64,000 nt of DNA from Paralichthys olivaceus (Eukaryota > Chordata > Actinopteri > Pleuronectiformes > Paralichthyidae): contig NC_091094.1 in the NCBI RefSeq assembly GCF_024713975.1, forward strand, positions 25,010,501 to 25,074,500, read 5' to 3'. Under the pieces are notes generated by a model. The model was not told the origin of the DNA, made no database searches, and saw only the letters and a program-made list of their open reading frames with translations. The stretch's first letter is position 1, and every line of letters starts with the position of its first letter. Positions 1 through 19,084 of this stretch are shown one piece after another. The position numbers and the translations under genes are program-made.

Positions 1-2590
1 TGCAGAGGGTTTCCTTGTTGTCTTGGTATATTGTAGACTTCCCCTCTGTATACCAACCAGAGGTTGGGATTGACACCTTTTGTATTGAGGGACAGGCCTC
101 AGCAGTAAGAGTGTTCTCCTTACTGCTGGAGAAGATGCTGCTGCTGTCGCTCGTATCGGACTCGCTGCTATGCACTGTTATAGAGGGAAGGTTACTCTTG
201 ACTCCATCCTCAGTCGAAGGGTATATGTTTGACTTTCCCTCCGTATGCCCAGCAGAGGTTGGGATTGACACCCTTTGTATAGAGTGACAGGCCTCAGCAG
301 AAAGAGCGTTCTCCTCCTTACTGCTGGAGTAGATGCTGCTGCTGTTGCTTGTATCAGACTTGCTGCCAGGCACTGTTATAGAGGGAAGGTTATTCTTGAA
401 TCCTTCATCCTCAGTCGAAGGGTATATGTTTGACTTCCCCTCTGTATACCCACCAGAGGTTGAGATTGACACCCTTTGTATAGAGTGACAGGCCTCAGCA
501 GAAAGAGCTTTCTCCTCCCTACTGCTGGAGAAGATGCTGCTGCTGTCGCTTGTATCAGACTTGCTGCCAGGCACTGTTATAGAGGGAAGGTCATTCTTGA
601 CTCCTTCATCCTCAGTCGAAGGGTATATGTTGGACTTCCCCTCTATATACCCAGCAGAGGTTGAGATTGACACCCTTTGTATAGAGTGACAGGCCTCAGC
701 AGAAAGAGCTTTCTCCTCCTTACTGCTGGAGTAGATGCTGCTGCTGTCGCTTGCATCGGACTCACTGCTATGCGCTGTTATAGAGGGAAGGTTATTCTTT
801 AATCCTTCATCCTCAGTCAAAGGGTATATGTTGGACTTCCCCTCTATATACCCACCAGAGGTTGAGATTGACACCCTTTGTATAGAGTGACAGGCCTCAG
901 CAGAAAGAGCTTTCTCCTCCTCACTGCTGGAGTAGATGCTGCTGCTGTAGCCCAAATCAGACTCGCTGCCAGGCACTGTTATAGAGGGAAGGTTACTCTT
1001 GACTCCATCCTCAGTCGAAGGGTATATGTTTGACTTCCCCTCTATATGCCCAGCAGAGGTTGAGATTGACACCCTTTGAATAGAGTGACAGGCCTCAGCA
1101 GAAAGAGCTTTCTCCTCCTGACTGCTGGAGAAGATGCTGCTGCTGTAGCCCAAATCAGACTTGCTGCCAGGCACTGTTATAGAGGGAAGGTCATTCTTGA
1201 CTCCTTCATCCTCAGTCGAAGGGTATATGTTGGACTTCCCCTCTATATACCCAGCAGAGGTTGGGATTGACACCCTTTGAATAGAGTGACAGGCCTCAGC
1301 AGAAAGAGCTTTCTCCTCCTCACTGCTGGAGTAGATGCTGCTGCTGTAGCCCAAATCAGACTCGCTGCCAGGCACTGTTATAGAGGGAAGGTCATTCTTT
1401 ACTCCTTCATCCTCAGTTGAAGGGTATATGTTTGACTTCCCCTGTATATACCCAGCAGAGGTTGAGATTGACACCCTTTGAATAGAGTGACAGGCCTCAG
1501 CAGAAAGAGCTTTCTCCTCCTGACTGCTGGAGAAGATGCTGCTGCTGTAGCCCAAATCAGACTTGCTGCCAGGCACTGTTATAGAGGGAAGGTCATTCTT
1601 GACTCCTTCATCCTCAGTCGAAGGGTATATGTTGGACTTCCCCTCTATATACCCAGCAGAGGTTGGGATTGACACCCTTTGAATAGAGTGACAGGCCTCA
1701 GCAGAAAGAGCTTTCTCCTCCTTACTGCTGGAGTAGATGCTGCTGCTGTCGCTTGTATCGGACTCACTGCTATGCGCTGTTATAGAGGGAAGGTTATTCT
1801 TTACTCCTTCATCCTCAGTCGAAGGGTATATGTTGGACTTCCCCTCTGTATACCCACCAGAGGTTGAGATTGACACCCTTTGTATAGAATGACAGGCCTC
1901 AGCAGAAAGAGGTTTCTCCTCCTCACTGCTGGAGTAGATGCTGCTGCTGTAGCCCAAATCAGACTCGCTGCCAGGCACTGTTATAGAGGGAAGGTCATTC
2001 TTGACTCCTTCATCCTCAGTCGAAGGGTATATGTTTGACTTCCCCTTTATATACCCAGCAGAGGTTGAGATTGACACCCTTTGAATAGAGTGACAGGCCT
2101 CAGCAGAAAGAGCTTTCTCCTCCTTACTGCTGGAGTAGATGCTGCCGCTGCTGTCGCTTGCATCGGACTCACTGCTATGCGCTGTTATAGAGGGAAGGTT
2201 ATTCTTTACTCCTTCATCCTCAGTCGAAGGGTATATGTTTGACTTCCCCTCTGTATACCCACCAGAGGTTGAGATTGACACCCTTTGTGTAGAGTGACAG
2301 GCCTCAGCAGAAAGAGCTTTCTCCTCCTTACTGCTGGAGTAGATGCTGCTGCTGTCGCTTGTATCGGACTCGCTGCTACGCACTGTTAAAGAGGGAAGGT
2401 TATTCTTGACTCCTTCATCCTCAGTCGAAGGGTATATGTTGGACTTCCCCTCTGTATACCCACCAGAGGTTGAGATTGACACCCTTTGAATAGAGTGACA
2501 GGCCTCAGCAGAAAGAGCCTTCTCCTCCTTACTGTTGGAGAAGATGCTTCTGCTGTCGCTCGTATCGGACTCGCTGCTATGCGCTGTCAT
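1..2590 (-). repeat. Coding minisatellite, 13 visible units of ~201 bp (copy 1)
   Basis: A tandem array lies inside exon 3 of the copy-1 USP gene. The marker gacaggcctcagcag recurs at 91, 286, 487, 688, 889, 1087, 1288, 1489, 1690, 1891, 2092, 2296 and 2497. On the minus strand each unit encodes AEACHSIQRVS, then GKSNIYPSTEDEG, then a Ser/Asp-rich stretch. The left edge corresponds to base 8768 of copy 2, so almost the whole copy-1 array is visible. It has 13 units against 25 in copy 2. Confidence 0.93.
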
Positions 2591-3012
2591 AGAGGGAAGG
2601 TCATTCTTGACTCCTTCATACTCAGTCGAAGTCTTAACCTTTTTCTTCTAGGAATAAGTAAGAAAGTGAACACAGTTAAATGCCGCTATCACGTACAGAC
2701 TCCACGTTACTGTAAAAACTTGGTCAGCTGGTAAAACCAACATCACTCAGCTCTTTGGGACAAACCTTGAAACGAAAGCAACACAGCCTACGCCACCAAG
2801 AGCTCTTCTTCTTCTTTCCTTCACCTGAGGCCTCCTGGACAACAGCCTCACTCTGTGGAGTCTGTTTAGTTTTCTGTTTGAAACAACAACATAAGCTGAT
2901 ACAGCTGAAAGAGACACAAATAACTGCAACACATTGTTAATTTGTTTATATTCAGCTCTGATCATACCTTGTTATGATGGAACCACCTAAAAATTGAAAG
3001 GAAATTGCCCAT
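1..3012 (-). CDS. USP37-like ubiquitin-specific protease, copy 1 (5' part only, runs off left edge)
   Basis: This is the first of two tandem genes, read leftward. Exon 1 is 2968-3012 (start ATG at 3010-3012, peptide MGNFLSIFRWFHHNK). Exon 2 is 2766-2873 and contains KKKKSSWWRRLCCFRFK. Exon 3 begins at 2647 after a CCTAG acceptor and stays open to base 1. Exon 3 holds 13 visible copies of the 67-residue repeat found in the neighbouring gene. Every unit spacing I measured is a multiple of three (195, 198, 201 or 204 bases), so the frame appears intact. The catalytic exons would lie left of the window. Exons 1-2 and their splice sites match copy 2 base for base as far as I compared them. The enzyme class is inferred from the complete copy-2 gene. 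The start codon has A at -3 and G at +4. Whether copy 1 is functional cannot be judged from this part alone. Confidence 0.72.
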
Positions 3013-4073
3013 CCTTATTGTTAAGTAGTAGGTGTAGATCAACCGATTAATCAATGTATAAACTTCTGTAATATTCTCTGTGTGAACAAACACTTCTATC
3101 TCCAACATTAGTCAGCGTGGGGAAATGAATGTTGGCTACTGCACCAATATTTCCTTTGAATCATTCAAAGCATTTTCCTTTAATGCTACATCATATCAAA
3201 CACACCTGTCATGGGGTTTTACCCATGTCCTTTAATATATAAGGTGGCAAATCCCTAACATACATCATGAGTGGCAGCACATCAGTAGCATTAGCATAGC
3301 TGTATCATCAGGCAGCATGGAAGCATGTTAAGCTAGCACTCACAAACCATTTAATCTTTCTAAACTGTACTGATTCACAGAGTCCACAACCAATAGTCAA
3401 AAATAATCTCAACGACACACAGTTTAATTTCACAAACATTTATTGTTATTTAATGTTTTGGGTACATGTGTTTGTGATGTTATATCCACCCTCCCTCACC
3501 TTCCTGCAGGGTCCTGGTCCCACTGGCAAACAGGAAGTGGGAAATTCCAACTCCATTTATAGAGAGGGGAATCTGGAGTGTACCACATAAAAGCTAGTCC
3601 AGAGGAGTGTTTTAAATGATATCACAGAAATGCTCTTTTAAATGCCCATCTTATATAATAGTGTGATATTTCTGTGACAGGCTAGGTCGGGTGAAATGCT
3701 GATGGGTATATTTATATTTTTCAATGTCATATCTGATAGAGATTTGTTCATTGATATTTGTCTCTATGGTTTGTCTTGTAGGAGGGGCTTCCACTATAAA
3801 GCCAGTGGGTAGATGCCCCTCAAGAGAGATCTAAGCTTGGGCCTGGAGGCCATGTGTACGAGAGCCCATGAGTCAGTGGCCTAGTAATGGGTATTTGACT
3901 TCAGTTTGAAGGGTTTTTGTTTGTTTGTTTAAAGAGTTTGTTGGTGATGTTATCATTAAAATAGTTGACGAGAAAGAATACTATATTGTGAGCTGCTGTA
4001 AACAGAGCTGCAGTTTACCATCAGAGTTGCTTGAAGCATATGATATGGTTCAAGTGCAGATCCATGAAGGGTT

Positions 4074-4288
4074 TATCACTTTCTTTAACGTTGCATATCA
4101 GGGGTTTTTTGGGGGGGGACATTTTCATTGATTTTCCAGGCAACAATTCAAGGATTTTGACGGAAAAATCCGGCACATTAAGGGAACCGATATCAGTGAG
4201 CATGTGCAATTTGGTGCAGCTTGATTAAATTAAGGAGACAAACGGGTCTTGGTGGAGGTCTGCGTTCTACTGAGTGCTGTTTTAGTTT
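4074..4288 (+). repeat. 3' part of a common teleost interspersed repeat
   Basis: The stretch running from tttaacgttgcatatcagg through aatttggtgcagcttgatta to gtctgcgttctactgagtgc matches, from memory, the 3' half of a widespread fish repeat. The 5' half of that repeat reads like 20597-20790 (CTCCACCAACGAGGTT... CCCCTGTCCATTTGTTTG). I cannot assign the family. The duplicate copy is at 15261-15475. Confidence 0.55.
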
Positions 4289-5069
4289 TTATTCAGATTT
4301 GGTTCATGCTGACTTCCAGAGTACTGCTGCACATTGTCAGACACAAATGGGAAATATCACAGTGGACGATACGAGAAGTCTAACTTTGAGTTGTTATGAA
4401 GACTAAAAAGCTGCGATATATGATGATATTTTTATGTGACAAGAGTTTGTGAGCCGGATTCCACATATGTGTTCCATGTATCTATCAAATAAAAAATACC
4501 TATTTTAAAGAAAATCACTTTTATTTTCAATCAATTCATTAAAACTGTACAACTCTTATTCTCAAGTGGCTGACATACTGTGTTACATAATATATGTAAA
4601 TACTTAACTGACATCAGCCATAAATAAAGGGTGGATTGCAAACTTGTGATAAATAAAACCCAATAAAAAAATTCCTATACAGGCCAGTTGGCACTGCACA
4701 TCAGTGACATGTTAATGTTTAATGCAAGCACCATTTACTCGACATTTTAAACTGTTCAGTTTAAAGCTACATGAATCACATGAATTAGCTTTAGTTCAGC
4801 TAGTCATACTTACAACCAGTGGCTATGAAATGCAGCATTTAACCCTAACCCTAGTTGTATATAAAGAACTAATCAAGTGAATAAAAGGAAATTTCACTCC
4901 AGCAGAGGAGTCAGACTGTAGGTGTATGGTAGATGATGCTGGGAGATTGGATTTGGACAGATTTCACTAACTCAATTCACAGCAAAATCTAATTGTTTTG
5001 GTTAATTTCTGTCTAAATACATATACTTCACGGTGCGGGGCGCTGGCCAACTGAGTGAGTGTAAGTAAA

Positions 5070-5109
5070 GTTTTGGCATGCGCAGGACCTGAGGCTGCTC
5101 TTTAATTGG
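5070..5109 (-). promoter_or_regulatory. Possible CCAAT/NRF1-like promoter patch (copy 1)
   Basis: Read on the minus strand, a CCAAT box (attgg at 5105-5109) is followed about 25 bases later by TGCGCATGCC. That is close to the palindromic NRF1 site, in a locally CG-richer stretch. It lies about 2.1 kb upstream of the USP start codon, so using it would require a spliced 5' UTR. This is motif evidence only. Confidence 0.25.
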
Positions 5110-5825
5110 TTGTTGCAGATTTTCCATGGGACGCAGCTCTCTGCTGATCACTGGATATATAGTATGTGTTCCTAATAAAGGAATAAAGGGTTCAGTGAGT
5201 GTATCTGCAGATGTTGTCTGATCAACAAGTTTATCCGAAACCTGCCACCTGCAAACTCAATCAGTGGACGTTTGAAATGATATAGACATACGATGATTAG
5301 ACCACTACAGTAGTGGGTGTGTAGTAACAGGTGGCGTCTGTCTTTCTCAGCGATAACTGAAGCAGTTTTAAACTTTGAATTAAATGTATAAGGTTGGTTG
5401 GTTTGTATGATCAGGACCGGGGCTTTTCTTTTCAAATCCCTCAAAGCTCAAGGTAACAGAATTACAACAGAGTTGGCCCCATGCTCATGCATGTGAAACA
5501 CATGGAAAAGTCATATACGTATTGAATTGAAAGGATGGTTTGGAATGATGACGAACACAAACCTGTGTAAAAAAAACTGGAAATGATGTGTGTTATGTTC
5601 CTATAATATATTACACCAATTAGTCAGATGGTGGCGCTGTAACCAATTTACAACTTTTAAACTTTGAGTCTTATTGACTCGAAGCTTGACAAACAAGTCC
5701 AACTCACTCTGCTCCACACACACACATTAACTAGAAAGCACATAGCATGTTCAATCTGTGTCGTGACAAACAAATATACTATACAAATATATTGCAAATA
5801 TAACAACAAATATACAGGTGTGAAT

Positions 5826-6471: not shown

Positions 6472-9400
6472 TCAACTCCACTTCTCTGACTGCAAACATT
6501 GAAAATACAAACCAATAAACTGTGTTGTTGGTTATTTACTCTAGAGGCAATTTGCTTAAAACACAAGCTTGTGTGTGTTTCTCTTTGTGTATAAGAAAAC
6601 ACATGAAATAAACTTTGTTTCAAAATGCGCGGAGCTGTTGTCTCACCTTCTTCTCATAAAACAGCATGTATGCGTCTTCCTGCCGCATTTCGCAGACAGA
6701 TGTTCCTGTTGTTTTTGTGACGTTTTGGTCGTTGTACGTTAGCCAACAGTCAGTCACGTCACATAAGTCTCTGTGAGTGCTCTCACAGATGTAATGGCCT
6801 GAAAGGAGAGTACACACTTGTTATTATCGGTACATCTGAAGAGGTTGTGAAATCTGAAATCATGAGGCTCAACTCGTTTTCAACGTGAGTGGTTGCCAGA
6901 TACCAGCAAACACTTACCATCGTTGACCGTGGAGCCGAAATGGCTGATGATGCTCACCAGAGAGTAGCGAGTCTAGAAAAGAGCAACAGTTACAGTTAGC
7001 TACACACATTTGACTGCAGGTTCTGCATGTCTGTGTCAAAGGAGAACAAATGAGCTGTGCCATTTCGTGCAATGAACATGATTTTTCACCTGTTTAGTGC
7101 AGCTGGACTGACCATCGAGCTCCAGCTCCCGCGACAGAACCAGAGGTCTTTCAAGCCTATTCTCTCCCAACTCACGGGTGAAGGTGGCTCTCATCAGATG
7201 GATGATCAACACACTGTTGACATAGGAAGGAGGAAGAGACAGAGGGAAGAGGGTTAGATCACAAACTGACTCAGCTGTGGTCAGGTTTTAGCGGCTCCAA
7301 AACTCTAGGAGTGTGGACGCCAGGCGTCACAGAATTGATGCATTTTCAAACTAAAGTGAAGCAATGTGAATGTAGCAAGAGCACAGAATTGTGATTCAGT
7401 ATCTTGCCTTCTTCTTTATGCAAAATAGAAAAAAATTGGGATCAAACTGCCGACCGATCGAAGTGGTGAGAGGACGAACCGTTCTACCTCCTCAAACACG
7501 GCTGCATCCAATTAATCAATCAATTTTTGATGGATGTGATGTTACTCACTTTGGTAGAGTCAAGAACGAGGAGCACTCTGTCGACTCCGTACCACCACAA
7601 TCACAACTACACTCAAACTGTCCCCCCTGCAACAGAGAACAAGAGGGGGAAGCAGGATTTAGTGAAGATCTCATGATGAGACAAATGACCTATTTGTTCA
7701 AAATATTACTGTCAATAAATATGGTGGGATAAATATTTGACTCACTTTAAGGTACTGCTGCAAACAGTCACTCACGGTGCCTCCAGGGACCAGATTCAGG
7801 GAGAGCTGGAGGTGGTCACTGCTCGTCATGCACTGAATATGACATCTGCAGAACAAAGGGACAATTCAAATGAAAACAAAGTGACAACACATTCTGAACA
7901 CCACAAATGGACATTCAAAAAATGGTCTCAGACTTTATGACCCCACTGGACGTAAACATGGGGATTCTCTACAGCCTGGGAATAAAACTGTGACTGTTTA
8001 CGTACTTTGTGCAGGTCCTGGTGCTCAACATTTCGAAGGCGACGTGAGCATCCACTGGGCAGGTGTAACTCATACCCTTGCTGTCTGCTATTGCCTGGAG
8101 GTCGATTGACTGAGATCTCATCATGTTAAGCACACAGCTGAGGAACTCACTGGCATCCTGCGACATGCAAAAAATAAAGTTCAATAAAGTTTACATTGAA
8201 AAAGCTAATCTAAAATAGAGAAAAATAGAGTGTTTCTATGCTATGTATTGTAACTAATACAGTATGTGTACTAACTTTTTGATAATTATCCTTAAACTCT
8301 GAATACTCTTCAGCGACAGTGTCTTTAAAGGACGCCAGGACCCTTCTCTTCTTTGCGTTTTTGTTGCGGTGGCAGAGTTTGAGCTCCATGAACTGTCTGG
8401 AAACAGTAGAAAAGAAGAGAAATGATTTTCAGTTGTTTCAGTTCACGTCAACTTATATCTTTGGACAAGCCAAAGAATTACATATGTATGTGAGTGTGTG
8501 TGTGTGTGTGTATGGTGCAGTACCTCATGAGTTTGGAGTAGGGGTACGAAGTCCACACCTTCTCCTGGTTGTGGACATCTTGAACAAAGTCAAAGAGGTT
8601 CATGAGGACTTGCAGAGAGGAGTTCATATAGCACGTCTGCCTCAGGTTGGGGAACCTTAAACACAGCAAGATAGAGGATGAATGTCAGACTGGATCTCAT
8701 TGTCTTCACCATATGTGTAATTAAAGTCTCTTTGCGGTTGCTTACCCGAGGCAGGAAATGTCCTTTTTGCAGAGGGTTTCCTTGTTGTCTTGGTATATTG
8801 TAGACTTCCCCTCTGTATACCAACCAGAGGTTGGGATTGACACCTTTTGTATTGAGGGACAGGCCTCAGCAGTAAGAGTGTTCTCCTTACTGCTGGAGAA
8901 GATGCTGCTGCTGTCGCTCGTATCGGACTCGCTGCTATGCACTGTTATAGAGGGAAGGTTACTCTTGACTCCATCCTCAGTCGAAGGGTATATGTTTGAC
9001 TTTCCCTCCGTATGCCCAGCAGAGGTTGGGATTGACACCCTTTGTATAGAGTGACAGGCCTCAGCAGAAAGAGCGTTCTCCTCCTTACTGCTGGAGTAGA
9101 TGCTGCTGCTGTTGCTTGTATCAGACTTGCTGCCAGGCACTGTTATAGAGGGAAGGTTATTCTTGAATCCTTCATCCTCAGTCGAAGGGTATATGTTTGA
9201 CTTCCCCTCTGTATACCCACCAGAGGTTGAGATTGACACCCTTTGTATAGAGTGACAGGCCTCAGCAGAAAGAGCTTTCTCCTCCCTACTGCTGGAGAAG
9301 ATGCTGCTGCTGTCGCTTGTATCAGACTTGCTGCCAGGCACTGTTATAGAGGGAAGGTCATTCTTGACTCCTTCATCCTCAGTCGAAGGGTATATGTTGG

Positions 9401-12400
9401 ACTTCCCCTCTATATACCCAGCAGAGGTTGAGATTGACACCCTTTGTATAGAGTGACAGGCCTCAGCAGAAAGAGCTTTCTCCTCCTTACTGCTGGAGTA
9501 GATGCTGCTGCTGTCGCTTGCATCGGACTCACTGCTATGCGCTGTTATAGAGGGAAGGTTATTCTTTAATCCTTCATCCTCAGTCGAAGGGTATATGTTG
9601 GACTTCCCCTCTATATACCCACCAGAGGTTGAGATTGACACCCTTTGAATAGAGTGACAGGCCTCAGCAGAAAGAGCTTTCTCCTCCTCACTGCTGGAGA
9701 AGATGCTGCTGCTGTCGCTTGTATCGGACTCACTGCTATGCGCTGTTATAGAGGGAAGGTTATTCTTTACTCCTTCATCCTCAGTCGAAGGGTATATGTT
9801 TGACTTCCCCTCTGTATACCCACCAGAGGTTGAGATTGACACCCTTTGAATAGAGTGACAGGCCTCAGCAGAAAGAGGTTTCTCCTCCTCACTGCTGGAG
9901 TAGATGCTGCTGCTGTAGCCCAAATCAGACTCGCTGCCAGGCACTGTTATAGAGGGAAGGTCATTCTTTACTCCTTCATCCTCAGTCGAAGGGTATATGT
10001 TTGACTTCCCCTGTATATACCCAGCAGAGGTTGAGATTGACACCCTTTGAATAGAGTGACAGGCCTCAGCAGAAAGAGCTTTCTCCTCCTTACTGCTGGA
10101 GTAGATGCTGCCGCTGCTGTCGCTTGTATCGGACTCGCTGCTATGCGCTGTTATAGAGGCAAGGATAGTCTTGACTCCTTCATCCTCAGTCGAAGGGTAT
10201 ATGTTGGACTTCCCCTCTGTATACCCAGCAGAGGTTGGGATTGACACCCTTTGTATAGAGTGACAGGCCTCAGCAGAAAGAGCTTTCTCCTCCTGACTGC
10301 TGGAGAAGATGCTGCTGCTGTCGCTTGTATCAGACTTGCTGCCAGGCACTGTTATAGAGGGAAGGTCATTCTTGACTCCTTCATCCTCAGTCGAAGGGTA
10401 TATGTTGGACTTCCCCTCTATATACCCAGCAGAGGTTGGGATTGACACCCTTTGAATAGAGTGACAGGCCTCAGCAGAAAGAGCTTTCTCCTCCTTACTG
10501 CTGGAGTAGATGCTGCTGCTGTCGCTTGTATCGGACTCACTGCTATGCGCTGTTATAGAGGGAAGGTTATTCTTTACTCCTTCATCCTCAGTCGAAGGGT
10601 ATATGTTGGACTTCCCCTCTGTATACCCACCAGAGGTTGAGATTGACACCCTTTGTATAGAATGAAAGGCCTCAGCAGAAAGAGCTTTCTCCTCCTCACT
10701 GCTGGAGAAGATGCTGCTGCTGTAGCCCAAATCAGACTCGCTGCCAGGCACTGTTATAGAGGGAAGGTCATTCTTGACTCCTTCATCCTCAGTCGAAGGG
10801 TATATGTTGGACTTCCCCTTTATATACCCAGCAGAGGTTGAGATTGACACCCTTTGAATAGAGTGACAGGCCTCAGCAGAAAGAGCTTTCTCCTCCTGAC
10901 TGCTGGAGAAGATGCTGCTGCTGTCGCTTGTATCAGACTTGCAGCCAGGCACTGTTATAGAGGGAAGGTCATTCTTGACTCCTTCATCCTCAGTCGAAGG
11001 GTATATGTTGGACTTCCCCTCTATATACCCAGCAGAGGTTGGGATTGACACCCTTTGAATAGAGTGACAGGCCTCAGCAGAAAGAGCTTTCTCCTCCTTA
11101 CTGCTGGAGTAGATGCTGCTGCTGTCGCTTGCATCGGACTCACTGCTATGCGCTGTTATAGAGGGAAGGTTATTCTTTACTCCTTCATCCTCAGTCGAAG
11201 GGTATATGTTTGACTTCCCCTCTGTATACCCACCAGAGGTTGAGATTGACACCCTTTGTGTAGAGTGACAGGCCTCAGCAGAAAGAGGTTTCTCCTCCTT
11301 ACTGCTGGAGTAGATGCTGCTGCTGTCACTTGTATCGGACTCACTGCTATGCGCTGTTATAGAGGGAAGGTTATTCTTTACTCCTTCATCCTCAGTCGAA
11401 GGGTATATGTTGGACTTCCCCTCTGTATACCCACCAGAGGTTGAGATTGACACCCTTTGTATAGAATGACAGGCCTCAGCAGAAAGAGGTTTCTCCTCCT
11501 CACTGCTGGAGTAGATGCTGCTGCTGTAGCCCAAATCAGACTCACTGCCAGGCACTGTTATAGAGGGAAGGTCATTCTTGACTCCTTCATCCTCAGTCGA
11601 AGGGTATATGTTTGACTTCCCCTTTATATACCCAGCAGAGGTTGAGATTGACACCCTTTGAATAGAGTGACAGGCCTCAGCAGAAAGAGCTTTCTCCTCC
11701 TTACTGCTGGAGTAGATGCTGCTGCTGTCGCTTGTATCGGACTCACTGCTATGCGCTGTTATAGAGGGAAGGTTATTCTTTACTCCTTCATCCTCAGTCG
11801 AAGGGTATATGTTTGACTTCCCCTCTGTATACCCACCAGAGGTTGAGATTGACACCCTTTGAATAGAGTGACAGGCCTCAGCAGAAAGAGGTTTCTCCTC
11901 CTTACTGCTGGAGTAGATGCTGCCGCTGCTGTCGCTTGTATCGGACTCGCTGCTATGCGCTGTTATAGAGGCAAGGATAGTCTTGACTCCTTCATCCTCA
12001 GTCGAAGGGTATATGTTGGACTTCCCCTCTGTATACCCAGCAGAGGTTGGGATTGACACCCTTTGTATAGAGTGACAGGCCTCAGCAGAAAGAGCTTTCT
12101 CCTCCTGACTGCTGGAGAAGATGCTGCTGCTGTCGCTTGTATCAGACTTGCTGCCAGGCACTGTTATAGAGGGAAGGTCATTCTTGACTCCTTCATCCTC
12201 AGTCGAAGGGTATATGTTGGACTTCCCCTCTATATACCCAGCAGAGGTTGGGATTGACACCCTTTGAATAGAGTGACAGGCCTCAGCAGAAAGAGGTTTC
12301 TCCTCCTCACTGCTGGAGTAGATGCTGCTGCTGTAGCCCAAATCAGACTCACTGCCAGGCACTGTTATAGAGGGAAGGTCATTCTTGACTCCTTCATCCT

Positions 12401-14200
12401 CAGTCGAAGGGTATATGTTTGACTTCCCCTTTATATACCCAGCAGAGGTTGAGATTGACACCCTTTGAATAGAGTGACAGGCCTCAGCAGAAAGAGCTTT
12501 CTCCTCCTTACTGCTGGAGTAGATGCTGCTGCTGTCGCTTGTATCGGACTCACTGCTATGCGCTGTTATAGAGGGAAGGTTATTCTTTACTCCTTCATCC
12601 TCAGTCGAAGGGTATATGTTTGACTTCCCCTCTGTATACCCACCAGAGGTTGAGATTGACACCCTTTGTATAGAATGACAGGCCTCAGCAGAAAGAGGTT
12701 TCTCCTCCTCACTGCTGGAGTAGATGCTGCTGCTGTAGCCCAAATCAGACTCACTGCCAGGCACTGTTATAGAGGGAAGGTCATTCTTGACTCCTTCATC
12801 CTCAGTCGAAGGGTATATGTTTGACTTCCCCTGTATATACCCAGCAGAGGTTGAGATTGACACCCTTTGTATAGAGTGACAGGCCTCAGCAGAAAGAGCT
12901 TTCTCCTCCTTACTGCTGGAGTAGATGCTGCCGCTGCTGTCGCTTGTATCGGACTCGCTGCTATGCGCTGTTATAGAGGCAAGGATAGTCTTGACTCCTT
13001 CATCCTCAGTCGAAGGGTATATGTTGGACTTCCCCTCTGTATACCCAGCAGAGGTTGGGATTGACACCCTTTGTATAGAGTGACAGGCCTCAGCAGAAAG
13101 AGCTTTCTCCTCCTGACTGCTGGAGAAGATGCTGCTGCTGTCGCTTGTATCAGACTTGCTGCCAGGCACTGTTATAGAGGGAAGGTCATTCTTGACTCCT
13201 TCATCCTCAGTCGAAGGGTATATGTTGGACTTCCCCTCTATATACCCAGCAGAGGTTGGGATTGACACCCTTTGAATAGAGTGACAGGCCTCAGCAGAAA
13301 GAGCTTTCTCCTCCTTACTGCTGGAGTAGATGCTGCTGCTGTCGCTTGCATCGGACTCACTGCTATGCGCTGTTATAGAGGGAAGGTTATTCTTTACTCC
13401 TTCATCCTCAGTCGAAGGGTATATGTTTGACTTCCCCTCTGTATACCCACCAGAGGTTGAGATTGACACCCTTTGTGTAGAGTGACAGGCCTCAGCAGAA
13501 AGAGCTTTCTCCTCCTTACTGCTGGAGTAGATGCTGCTGCTGACGCTTGTATCGGACTCGCTGCTACGCACTGTTAAAGAGGGAAGGTTATTCTTGACTC
13601 CTTCATCCTCAGTCGAAGGGTATATGTTGGACTTCCCCTCTGTATACCCACCAGAGGTTGAGATTGACACCCTTTGAATAGAGTGACAGGCCTCAGCAGA
13701 AAGAGCCTTCTCCTCCTTACTGTTGGAGAAGATGCTGCTGCTGTCGCTCGTATCGGACTCGCTGCTATGCGCTGTCATAGAGGGAAGGTCATTCTTGACT
13801 CCTTCATACTCAGTCGAAGTCTTAACCTTTTTCTTCTAGGAATAAGTAAGAAAGTGAACACAGTTAAATGTCGCTATCACGTACAGACTCCACGTTACTG
13901 TAAAAACTTGGTCAGCTGGTAAAACCAACATCACTCAGCTCTTTGGGACAAACCTTGAAACGAAAGCAACACAGCCTACGCCACCAAGAGCTCTTCTTCT
14001 TCTTTCCTTCACCTGAGGCCTCCTGGACAACAGCCTCACTCTGTGGAGTCTGTTTAGTTTTCTGTTTGAAACAACAACATAAGCTGATACAGCTGAAAGA
14101 GACACAAATAACTGCAACACATTGTTAATTTGTTTATATTCAGCTCTGATCATACCTTGTTATGATGGAACCACCTAAAAATTGAAAGGAAATTGCCCAT
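6472..14200 (-). CDS. USP37-like ubiquitin-specific protease with 25 x 67-aa repeat (copy 2, complete, 12 coding exons)
   Basis: Deubiquitinating cysteine protease. Coding exons: 14156-14200, 13954-14061, 8746-13835, 8524-8655, 8276-8396, 8006-8157, 7746-7845, 7550-7626, 7090-7213, 6918-6972, 6647-6798, 6472-6489. All have GT-AG borders and matching phases; they total 6174 nt, or 2057 residues plus stop. Exon 1 gives MGNFLS (N-myristoylation pattern), exon 2 KKKKSSWWRRLCCFRFK, exon 3 the repeat array. The C-terminal ~310 residues are the USP fold. The Cys box is GFPNLRQTCYMNSSLQ (oxyanion Asn kept, usual Gly replaced by Arg). Then come DASEFLSCVLNMM, Zn-ribbon CTKC and CSCDC, LPNVLIIHLMR, and the His box SIISHFGSTVNDGHYICES with WLTYND. 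These resemble USP37. Exon 11 could also read through to a stop at 6620. The native promoter and poly(A) site are unproven. Confidence 0.85.
8800..13778 (-). repeat. Coding minisatellite, 25 units of 67 residues (copy 2)
   Basis: This array fills nearly all of exon 3 of the complete USP gene. Units are 67 residues (201 bp), with a few of 65, 66 or 68, always in frame. Each has a Ser/Asp tract (SSESDTSDSSSIYSSS or PGSESDLGYSSS types), an EEKALSAEACHSIQRVSI core, a hinge STSAGYIEGKSNIYP and an acidic STEDEGVKNDLPS tail. The two edge units at the C-terminal side (TLTAEACPSIQKVS and neighbour) are most diverged, as expected when central units are homogenised by unequal exchange. Multi-unit blocks recur: the KTILAS-tailed unit plus a Gly-inserted unit occurs three times (about 10047-10445, 11859-12257, 12867-13265). 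The composition predicts a disordered, heavily phosphorylatable region. No known domain is recognised. Confidence 0.93.
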
Positions 14201-15260
14201 CCTTATTGTTAAGTAGTAGGTGTAGATCAACCGATTAATCAATGTATAAACTTCTGTAATATTCTCTGTGTGAACAAACACTTCTATCTCCAACATTAGT
14301 CAGCGTGGGGAAATGAATGTTGGCTACTGCACCAATATTTCCTTTGAATCATACAAAGCATTTTCCTTTAATGCTACATCATATCAAACACACCTGTCAT
14401 GGGGTTTTACCCATGTCCTTTAATATATAAGGTGGCAAATCCCTAACATACATCATGAGTGGCAGCACATCAGTAGCATTAGCATAGCTGTATCATCAGG
14501 CAGCATGGAAGCATGTTAAGCTAGCACTCACAAACCATTTAATCTTTCTAAACTGTACTGATTCACAGAGTCCACAACCAATAGTCAAAATAATCTCAAC
14601 GACACACAGTTTAATTTCACAAACATTTATTGTTATTTAATGTTTTGGGTACATGTGTTTGTGATGTTATATCCACCCTCCCTCACCTTCCTGCAGGGTC
14701 CTGGTCCCACTGGCAAACAGGAAGTGGGAAATTCCAACTCCATTTATAGAGAGGGGAATCTGGAGTGTACCACATAAAAGCTAGTCCAGAGGAGTGTTTT
14801 AAATGATATCACAGAAATGCTCTTTTAAATGCCCATCTTATATAATAGTGTGATATTTCTGTGACAGGCTAGGTCGGGTGAAATGCTGATGGGTATATTT
14901 ATATTTTTCAATGTCATATCTGATAGAGATTTGTTCATTGATATTTGTCTCTATGGTTTGTCTTGTAGGAGGGGCTTCCACTATAAAGCCAGTGGGTAGA
15001 TGCTCCTCAAGAGAGATCTAAGCTTGGGCCTGGAGGCCATGTGTACGAGAGCCCATGAGTCAGTGGCCTAGTAATGGGTATTTGACTTCAGTTTGAAGGG
15101 TTTTTGTTTGTTCGTTTAAAGAGTTTGTTGGTGATGTTATCATTAAAATAGTTGACGAGAAAGAATACTATATTGTGAGCTGCTGTAAACAGAGCTGCAG
15201 TTTACCATCAGAGTTGCTTGAAGCATATGATATGGTTCAAGTGCAGATCCATGAAGGGTT

Positions 15261-15475
15261 TATCACTTTCTTTAATGTTGCATATCAGGGGTTTTTTGGG
15301 GGGGGACATTTTCATTGATTTTCCAGGCAACAATTCAAGGATTTTGATGGAAAAATCAGGCACATTAAGGGAACCGATATCAGTGAGCATGTGCAATTTG
15401 GTGCAGCTTGATTAAATTAAGGAGACAAACGGGTCTTGGTGGAGGTCTGCGTTCTACTGAGTGCTGTTTTAGTTT
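15261..15475 (+). repeat. 3' part of a common teleost interspersed repeat (duplicate of 4074-4288)
   Basis: Same repeat fragment as in copy 1, with a few substitutions (for example gatggaaaaatcaggc in place of gacggaaaaatccggc). It was duplicated with the 11-kb unit and did not insert independently. Confidence 0.55.
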
Positions 15476-16269
15476 TTATTCAGATTTGGTTCGTGCTGAC
15501 TTCCAGAGTACTGCTGCACATTGTCAGACACAAATGGGAAATATCACAGTGGACGATACGAGAAGTCTAACTTTGAGTTGTTATGAAGACTAAAAAGCTG
15601 CGATATATGATGATATTTTTATGTGACAAGAGTTTGTGAGCTGGATTCCACATATGTGTTCCATGTATCTATCAAATAAAAAATACCTATTTTAAAGAAA
15701 ATCACTTTTATTTTCAATCAATTCATTAAAACTGTACAACTCTTATTCTCAAGTGGCTGACATACTGTGTTACATAATATATGTAAATACTTAACTGACA
15801 TCAGCCATAAATAAAGGGTGGATTGCAAACTTGTGATAAATAAAACCCAATAAAAAAATTCCTATACAGGCCAGTTGGCACTGCACATCAGTGACATGTT
15901 AATGTTTAATGCATGAACCATTTACTCGACATTTTGAACTGTTCAGTTTAAAGCTACATGAATCACATGAATTAGCTTTAGTTCAGCTAGTCATACTTAC
16001 AACCAGTGGCTATGAAATGCAGCATTTAACCCTAACCCTAGTTGTATATAAAGAACTAATCAAGTGAATAAAAGGAAATTTCACTCCAGCAGAGGAGTCA
16101 GACTGTAGGTGTATGGTAGATGATGCTGGGAGATTGGATTTGGACAGATTTCACTAACTCAATTCACAGCAAAATCTAATTGTTTTGGTTAATTTCTGTC
16201 TAAATACATAAATACATATACTTCACGGTGCGGGGCGCTGGCCAACTGAGTGAGTGTAAGTAAAGTTTT

Positions 16270-16304
16270 GGCATGCGCAGGACCTGAGGCTGCTCTTTAA
16301 TTGG
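16270..16304 (-). promoter_or_regulatory. Possible CCAAT/NRF1-like promoter patch (copy 2)
   Basis: Same arrangement as in copy 1: CCAAT (minus strand) at 16300-16304 and TGCGCATGCC at about 16271-16280. It lies 2.1 kb upstream of the complete gene's ATG. Motif evidence only. Confidence 0.25.
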
Positions 16305-16703
16305 TTGTTGCAGATTTTCCATGGGACGCAGCTCTCTGCTGATCACTGGATATATAGTATGTGTTCCTAATAAAGGAATAAAGGGTTCAGTGAGTGTATC
16401 TGCAGATGTTGTCTGATCAACAAGTTTATCCGAAACCTGCCACCTGCAAACTCAATCAGTGGACGTTAGAAATGATATAGACATACGATGATTAGACCAC
16501 TACAGTAGTGGGTGTGTAGTAACAGGTGGCGTCTGTCTTTCTCAGCGATAACTGAAGCAGTTTTAAACTTTGAATTAAATGTATAAGGTTGGTTGGTTTG
16601 TATGATCAGGACCGGGGCTTTTCTTTTCAAATCCCTCAAAGCTCAAGGTAACAGAATTACAACAGAGTTGGCCCCATGCTCATGCATGTGAAACACATGG
16701 AAC

Positions 16704-18141: not shown

Positions 18142-18431
18142 CTATTCTCCCTGTGACTGCATCTGTTTACAGAAGGCCTCGAACTGCTGCTGCTCCAACT
18201 CTGTCATCACCTTGTTCAAAGCATAGATCTGAAAATAAAGACGGAGGCAACATTAGATGTTTACTTTGGACATCAGATCAGGTTTGAAAATAAATGAGTA
18301 GTGATGAAGTTTGTCACCTCTGCTCTCTGTCTCTGTTTGAGCTCTTGCTGTGCAGACTTCTGTCTGCCTCTATCGCCTCTTGTCGGGGTAGAGTTCAGCT
18401 TTGGCTTGTCCTTACGGCAGGTGGGCTCCAT
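18142..18431 (-). CDS. svbp: Small vasohibin-binding protein
   Basis: SVBP is the small chaperone-like partner of vasohibins. The complex acts as tubulin tyrosine carboxypeptidase on microtubules, and SVBP is needed for vasohibin stability and secretion (family knowledge). Coding exons are 18318-18431 (start ATG at 18429-18431, GAG|GTGACA donor) and 18142-18228 (TTTCAG acceptor), joined in phase 0. The product is 66 residues, the same length as mammalian SVBP. The conserved core is fully present: [15 protein letters not shown] from the first exon and [19 protein letters not shown] from the second. It is a single amphipathic helix rich in Glu/Gln/Lys. The ATG sits in a GCCATGG context. A 5' UTR exon joins at 18451. 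The USP tandem genes follow downstream on the same strand, with no sign of a functional link. Confidence 0.96.
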
Positions 18432-19084
18432 GGCAACAGGCCTCGATCAACCTAAGAGGGTTCAAGAGAAGATAGTCTGTGAGACCATGTCAAAAATATC
18501 AACTGACTGTGTTCTCAATTATAATACAAACCACCAACAATTACACTGAGTTCCTATATAAATGCAACATACAAGTCATCAGCAAAGCCCCCTTGATCAG
18601 AGTATAACAACTTAGTGCAGACACATATGAACAATATCTGAACATGGCTATAACCTCTTTAAATAGTGATGTGATGCTCATTTGAGATGTAAAGAATATG
18701 AGACAGTTCATTAGTCTTCAGTCTTAATGTGAACGCATTTAGCAAAGTCATGTTCATCTAATTGACGGTGAGGCTGCATACATTTCAGCTAACGTCATTA
18801 TCTCACTGAGAAACAGACCGAGAGTAACGGCAAGGACGCAAAATGTTAATAAGCAACAATAACACGTGTAATCGACATTTTCTATGTTAAAGACATAGCT
18901 CCTTTACGAAGCTAAAAACATTTGTTTCTATTTTCCTCACTGTTGAAAGTCTGACATTAACCCTGGTAAGTTAAACGTCAGCAAATCAAGTCTGTCTAAA
19001 TGACTTGCTAATGTTGATGCTAGCTCACGTTTGACTTGCTGCCCAGTAACGTTAAGATATTAGTTGAGATAATGGAGCACGTAC

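Follow-up and report, generated by a model that had tools for sequence, protein, structure and literature searches.

We report a cluster of eight complete tandem gene copies (c1 to c8, ~67 kb) on contig NC_091094.1 (C2) of Paralichthys olivaceus, part of which lies in the 64,000-nucleotide stretch analysed here (the window, C2:25010501-25074500; its genes are read from the minus strand). Our best explanation, held with moderate confidence, is that the cluster encodes a deubiquitinase related to USP37, in which a disordered linker built from a coding minisatellite forms a spacer of variable length between a probable membrane-binding N-terminus and the ubiquitin-specific protease (USP) domain. 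Each of these ingredients (a USP enzyme, a coding minisatellite, a tandem duplication) is ordinary in kind; their combination, and the recurrence of linker repeats in one enzyme family, is unusual, and no description of either was found in the open literature, a search that did not extend to subscription journals and preprints.

Gene anatomy and the eight-copy cluster

The gene model of c8, built exon by exon, runs from 14200 to 6472 on the minus strand. Its 12 exons are separated by introns that are all GT-AG with consistent phases, and splicing them returned exactly the 2057 residues predicted in the preliminary description. Exon 3 (13835-8746, 5090 bp) has AG/GT borders, contains no stop, joins in phase and comprises 25 units of ~67 amino acids. 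Tandem Repeats Finder placed the array at 8792-13819 (period 201 bp, 25.0 copies, 92% matches), in agreement with the 25-unit array in a single 5.1-kb exon that had been noted before. The ATG in exon 1 is flanked by A at -3 and G at +4. The exons of c8, in window positions, are as follows.

Exon 1: 14156..14200, minus strand; MGNFLSIFRWFHHNK, which we take to be an N-myristoylation-like start (MGxxxS), with basic residues next
Exon 2: 13954..14061, minus strand; contains the basic-tryptophan motif KKKKSSWWRRLCCFRFK
Exon 3: 8746..13835, minus strand; 25 units of ~67 amino acids (201 bp)
Exon 4: 8524..8655, minus strand; Cys box of the predicted USP domain, GFPNLRQTCYMNSSLQ
Exon 5: 8276..8396, minus strand; predicted USP domain
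Exon 6: 8006..8157, minus strand; predicted USP domain, first cysteine pair (CTKC, finished in exon 7)
Exon 7: 7746..7845, minus strand; predicted USP domain
Exon 8: 7550..7626, minus strand; predicted USP domain, second cysteine pair
Exon 9: 7090..7213, minus strand; predicted USP domain
Exon 10: 6918..6972, minus strand; predicted USP domain
Exon 11: 6647..6798, minus strand; His box (GHYI) and Asp (YND)
Exon 12: 6472..6489, minus strand; final codons and stop

The gene had been described as a single repeat-bearing USP gene, and is instead one of eight. The window edge cuts through the cluster: positions 1-2647 are exon 3 of a second copy (c7), and the remaining copies lie to the left on the chromosome. 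Every intron border in all eight copies shows AG/GT, each reading frame has a single stop, at its end, and the arrays total 108 units.

c1: ATG at C2:24961590, minus strand; 7 units, 849 residues
c2: ATG at C2:24969056, minus strand; 7 units, 848 residues
c3: ATG at C2:24976525, minus strand; 7 units, 849 residues
c4: ATG at C2:24986208, minus strand; 18 units, 1587 residues
c5: ATG at C2:24995981, minus strand; 18 units, 1586 residues
c6: ATG at C2:25004745, minus strand; 13 units, 1249 residues
c7: ATG at C2:25013512, minus strand; 13 units, 1250 residues
c8: ATG at C2:25024700, minus strand; 25 units, 2057 residues
c7 exon 1: window 2968..3012, minus strand
c7 exon 2: window 2766..2873, minus strand
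c7 exon 3: window 1..2647, minus strand; 13 units, with the last 22 bases and the USP exons left of the window
Duplicated segment: window 11201..16702 versus 25-5507; 96.8% identical, with homology stopping at ~16702

Tandem Repeats Finder gave 13.0 copies for the c7 array (25-2631). A search of the genome (588 Mb, 25 contigs) returned 86 repeat matches, all within C2:24959780-25024335, ruling out copies of the repeat elsewhere in it. Among public predictions, three came from the same contig (P0001, P0002 and P0032) and none represents c8. P0001 is c2 with 32 additional N-terminal residues and otherwise identical; P0032 corresponds to c4, from which it differs by a single mismatch and the loss of 27 residues within the array; P0002 comes closest to c6 or c7 and lacks parts of the array.

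All eight genes encode predicted USP (C19) deubiquitinases with the catalytic Cys, His and Asp in place. PF00443 (UCH) matched residues 540-841 of c1 with 132.7 bits against a cut-off of 23.9 (E 2e-38), and two further matches (E 0.05 and 0.11) were both below cut-off. The catalytic motifs of c8 are TCYMN, GHYI and YND, and the USP domains of c1-c7 differ from it only outside them. In an alignment (A1) of 30 of the 31 proteins found with the USP part as query (P0031 excluded), the catalytic C579 and D848 were invariant, H826 was nearly so (at least 90%), and C704, C707, C747 and C749 were invariant as well. The nearest solved structures by sequence were USP2 and USP12/46. The AlphaFold model of P0001 has a mean predicted local distance difference test score (pLDDT) of 48.5. 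Residues 48-578 score below 50, and ten-residue blocks over most of the USP domain score 68-96; the top Foldseek matches of the model were USP46, USP12 and USP1, followed by other USPs. Family match and fold comparison thus bear out the complete USP domain proposed earlier. The predicted disorder of the repeat is likewise supported by the model, in which the array has pLDDT values of mostly 25-35.

Array length changed faster than point substitutions built up. The USP regions, introns included, are 99.48-100% identical (12 pairs compared, out of 28), and adjacent units within c8 differ at a mean of 13.9 of 201 positions (16 equal-length pairs). No difference separates c5 from c6 in the 3 kb upstream, although their arrays count 18 and 13 units; for c3 (7 units) and c4 (18 units) the upstream identity is 99.36%. 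Between c1 and c3 there were no differences over 3 kb upstream and one in the USP region. The lower upstream identity of c8 to the other copies (~91-92% over 3 kb) arises because their homology stops ~2.5 kb above the c8 ATG. When unit strings were compared between copies, common blocks were interrupted by inserted segments. This pattern is what unequal recombination or gene conversion would leave, by adding or removing whole 201-bp units, a step that keeps the reading frame.

Fish relatives and the relationship to USP37

Relatives of the cluster were collected as predicted proteins. Querying with the USP part retrieved 31 proteins (E ≤1e-10), including two from the same contig as the cluster; the 2057-residue protein as query returned only two own proteins and P0024, and thereby added the third own protein. 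The USP domains of the 29 relatives are 36-59% identical to that of the cluster, and 18 of these proteins are named USP37 or USP37-like. Linker repeats, defined by a self-match score of at least 195 before the USP domain, were present in 11 of the 29 (P0003, P0005, P0006, P0011, P0012, P0023, P0024, P0025, P0026, P0028 and P0029). These come from seven species (Trachinotus, Dicentrarchus, Centropristis, two Etheostoma, Merluccius and Takifugu), with hake (Merluccius) counted four times; its proteins have ~2 units before the USP domain, and P0024 has more after it. Eight proteins had no self-match of at least 45 anywhere. In P0004 (Mastacembelus armatus), an array of 29-residue repeats (residues 563-876) lies after, not before, the USP domain.

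The repeats of the relatives were compared as profiles with hhalign, from units cut by hand-written patterns and then doubled. The Dicentrarchus units grouped with those of Trachinotus, Etheostoma and Centropristis (~50 residues, E 8e-6 or better), and the Takifugu (77 residues), Merluccius (93) and Mastacembelus (29) units matched no other type (E 0.5 or worse). The 67-residue unit matched none of the relatives' repeats (E 0.2 or worse), and homology with them was rejected. In a tree of 26 of the 31 proteins (P0022, P0027, P0029, P0030 and P0031 left out), deep forks were weak and repeat-bearing and repeat-free proteins were intermingled.

We define a teleost USP37-like family here by closest USP domains and an N-terminal K/R-rich Trp site. 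Both features are present in the cluster, and on this sequence definition it belongs to the family. The repeat had been thought to be fused to a deubiquitinase; this part of the description is not supported, as the linker that holds the array is native to a fish USP family, which makes growth in place likelier than fusion.

USP37 itself appears to be a different gene. In Pfam scans of c1 and the 30 A1 proteins, no match was found to UCH_N (PF16674), which we take to be the N-terminal PH domain of USP37, nor to any ubiquitin-interacting motif (UIM) family. USP37 is described as having a PH domain and, within its catalytic domain, a 284-residue insert with three UIMs (PMC6412040). In this genome UCH_N was found only on another chromosome, at C10:20678049-20679543, next to UCH matches, which marks a USP37 candidate; query residues 240 and 257, 17 apart, match ~2.8 kb apart in this locus. 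Among nine USP loci compared in the same genome, the C10 candidate also scored highest in sum, the other eight being short and maybe partial. A genome-wide PF00443 search listed 121 matches at E ≤0.001, the cluster itself not among them, and more members of the family may lie elsewhere in this genome. By their predicted domain content, lacking the N-terminal domain and the UIM insert, the cluster genes are not USP37, from which they likely descend. The earlier naming of USP37 as the closest family therefore survives in part: the C10 candidate is the best of the nine loci, but the defining parts of USP37 are absent from the cluster.

Spacer, by-product or platform

The N-terminus, judged by its motifs, probably tethers the protein to a membrane. 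The c8 protein begins MGNFLS, presumably an N-myristoylation-like pattern, and this MGN start, followed by the basic-tryptophan patch, would act as the anchor. The array would be a flexible spacer of variable length, and the USP domain at its far end would take off ubiquitin; the length of the spacer, and not the sequence of the repeat, would matter. In 20 of the 29 relatives, at least six K/R surround a Trp in the N-terminal part; 200 shuffles gave 4.7 such proteins on average and 10 at most. The count includes P0023 and P0028, where the Trp is residue 4, and P0024, where it lies in an N-terminal extension that is itself doubtful. In 12 of the 29 a Cys falls among the first six residues, together with a basic cluster.

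The basic-tryptophan motif was also seen at other positions. In the hake (Merluccius polli) proteins P0023, P0024 and P0028 it lies inside the repeated unit, and the putative membrane patch is thus multiplied; in P0003, P0005 and P0007 a second such motif follows the repeat region, towards the USP domain.

Several observations weigh against a membrane-tethered spacer. P0032 starts at the Met of the MGN sequence, and P0001 and P0002 start 32 residues upstream, so that in two of the three public predictions the MGN glycine would be buried. A Cys-plus-basic start is missing in 17 of the 29 relatives and a Trp site in nine, and three of the 20 Trp sites (P0023, P0024 and P0028) are outside the usual layout. 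No self-match of at least 45 before the USP domain was detected in 13 of the 29 (four with a short N-terminal part), and the existence of relatives without repeats means that the family does not require a repeat spacer. The pooled pN/pS (non-synonymous relative to synonymous differences) of the units, 0.83 over 100 internal units, leaves slight constraint on their sequence possible. In the AlphaFold model, residues 818-852, with the catalytic His and Asp, are of low confidence. Finally, the open arrays are weak evidence of selection, because zero stops among 63 distinct unit changes has a chance probability of 0.13.

The repeat may instead be a pure mutational by-product, with a linker that tolerates minisatellite growth and neither the sequence nor the length of the repeat functional, an alternative that we regard as possible but tentative. 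It fits the pattern of unit substitutions, which was obtained from 100 internal units (45 distinct proteins, 52 distinct DNAs; eight first units and eight short tails excluded). By a minimal-step rule, 17 distinct changes were synonymous and 46 non-synonymous, against a neutral expectation of 26% synonymous (p = 0.89); the substitutions look neutral and the repeat sequence is barely constrained. The repeat-free relatives and the lack of relationship between repeat types of different species are also as a by-product would leave them. Against it stand the linker repeats in predicted proteins of seven other species and, with the weight given above, the open reading frames of all eight arrays. That unrelated repeats have grown repeatedly at a single site in this enzyme family points to either a mutational hotspot or selection acting on length.

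A multivalent phosphorylated binding platform, in which every unit would be a docking site and the enzyme would gather many partners, is improbable. The GKSNIYP and LSAEA stretches vary little over the 100 units and serine makes up 25% of the c8 array, which speaks for a platform; against it, the substitutions fit neutrality and the 67-residue repeat was found in no relative, the relatives' unrelated repeats lying in the same linker. The preliminary description had proposed a spacer or such a platform, phosphorylatable at CK2-type sites. The whole c8 linker has 127 CK2-type motifs versus 78.5 in full shuffles, an excess we discount because one unit is multiplied; within one unit there was no enrichment (p = 0.147). 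Nor was there a common excess in 20 relatives, with Lucifuga alone more than two standard deviations above shuffles and Trachinotus alone more than two below. We therefore abandon the CK2 sites as a design feature and lower the idea of a sequence-specific platform. The earlier impression that the repeat is no described domain was supported: in the Pfam scan of c1 no family exceeded its cut-off there, a known repeat domain being dropped with Fe-ADH_2 (E 0.11) as the sole match inside the array, and among the 7991 candidate proteins that were scored, those sharing most words with the repeat, none outside the contig matched.

An assembly artefact with falsely duplicated copies or array lengths is very unlikely: c1 and c3 are nearly identical and public models disagree with the genome within the c4 and c6/c7 arrays, but the 204-kb stretch contains no N, most copies differ in their arrays and carry substitutions of their own, and repeats also occur in relatives from other assemblies.

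For the spacer reading, the cluster offers a natural length series of eight paralogues with near-identical catalytic domains and 7 to 25 units, in which an effect of spacer length is directly testable. It is a speculative and rather doubtful extension that membrane-tethered fish deubiquitinases would use linker repeat number as a quickly adjustable reach, with unrelated repeats recurring at one site and a ladder of eight paralogues whose tethers would span ~485 to 1695 residues.

Known systems, array variants and flanking genes

USP37, which is grouped with USP26 and USP29, shares the USP catalytic domain with the cluster proteins, and differs in that these have a basic-tryptophan N-terminus and a repeat linker in place of UCH_N (PH) and the UIM insert. 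The teleost USP37-like proteins (Trachinotus, Dicentrarchus, Etheostoma, Centropristis, Takifugu and Merluccius) have a homologous USP domain, often a similar N-terminal layout and, in the 11 proteins listed, linker repeats, but with units of ~50, 77 or 93 residues that cannot be aligned with the 67-residue unit. The human DUB/USP17 tandem family was compared by genomic arrangement alone; USP17 genes are not known to have introns, whereas each cluster gene is split into 12 exons and contains a coding repeat, internal to the gene, whose unit number varies. In proteins with coding variable-number tandem repeats, such as mucins, a single large exon encodes a long tandem repeat that is rich in Ser/Thr and varies in copy number. 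The cluster shares these features, and differs in that the repeat is an internal enzyme linker and paralogues of different length stand side by side.

Within the arrays, c1-c3 (C2:24957504-24976525) have two DSGYSS motifs per copy, a motif that to our eye resembles the beta-TrCP phosphodegron. Copies c4-c8 have no DSGYSS and four or five DLGYSS per copy, a TCG-to-TTG difference at a CpG. In P0032 and P0002, stretches of 27 or 18 residues are absent from some units of the c4 and c6/c7 arrays. Many units, also in window 8746-13835, contain donor-like A/GTAAGG or A/GTGAGG and, 81 bases further, acceptor-like ACAG/AG or ATAG/AG (slashes mark the borders); the missing pieces reflect either in-frame splicing within the array or an artefact of the models.

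In the ~87 kb left of the cluster, USP or N-terminal parts matched weakly at best (E 3.6 or worse), and open reading frames there presumably belong to an integrin alpha gene and a retroelement fragment, which they resemble. On the other side, right of c8, the cluster is bordered by a small minus-strand gene (window ~18150-18440), presumably SVBP by its resemblance.

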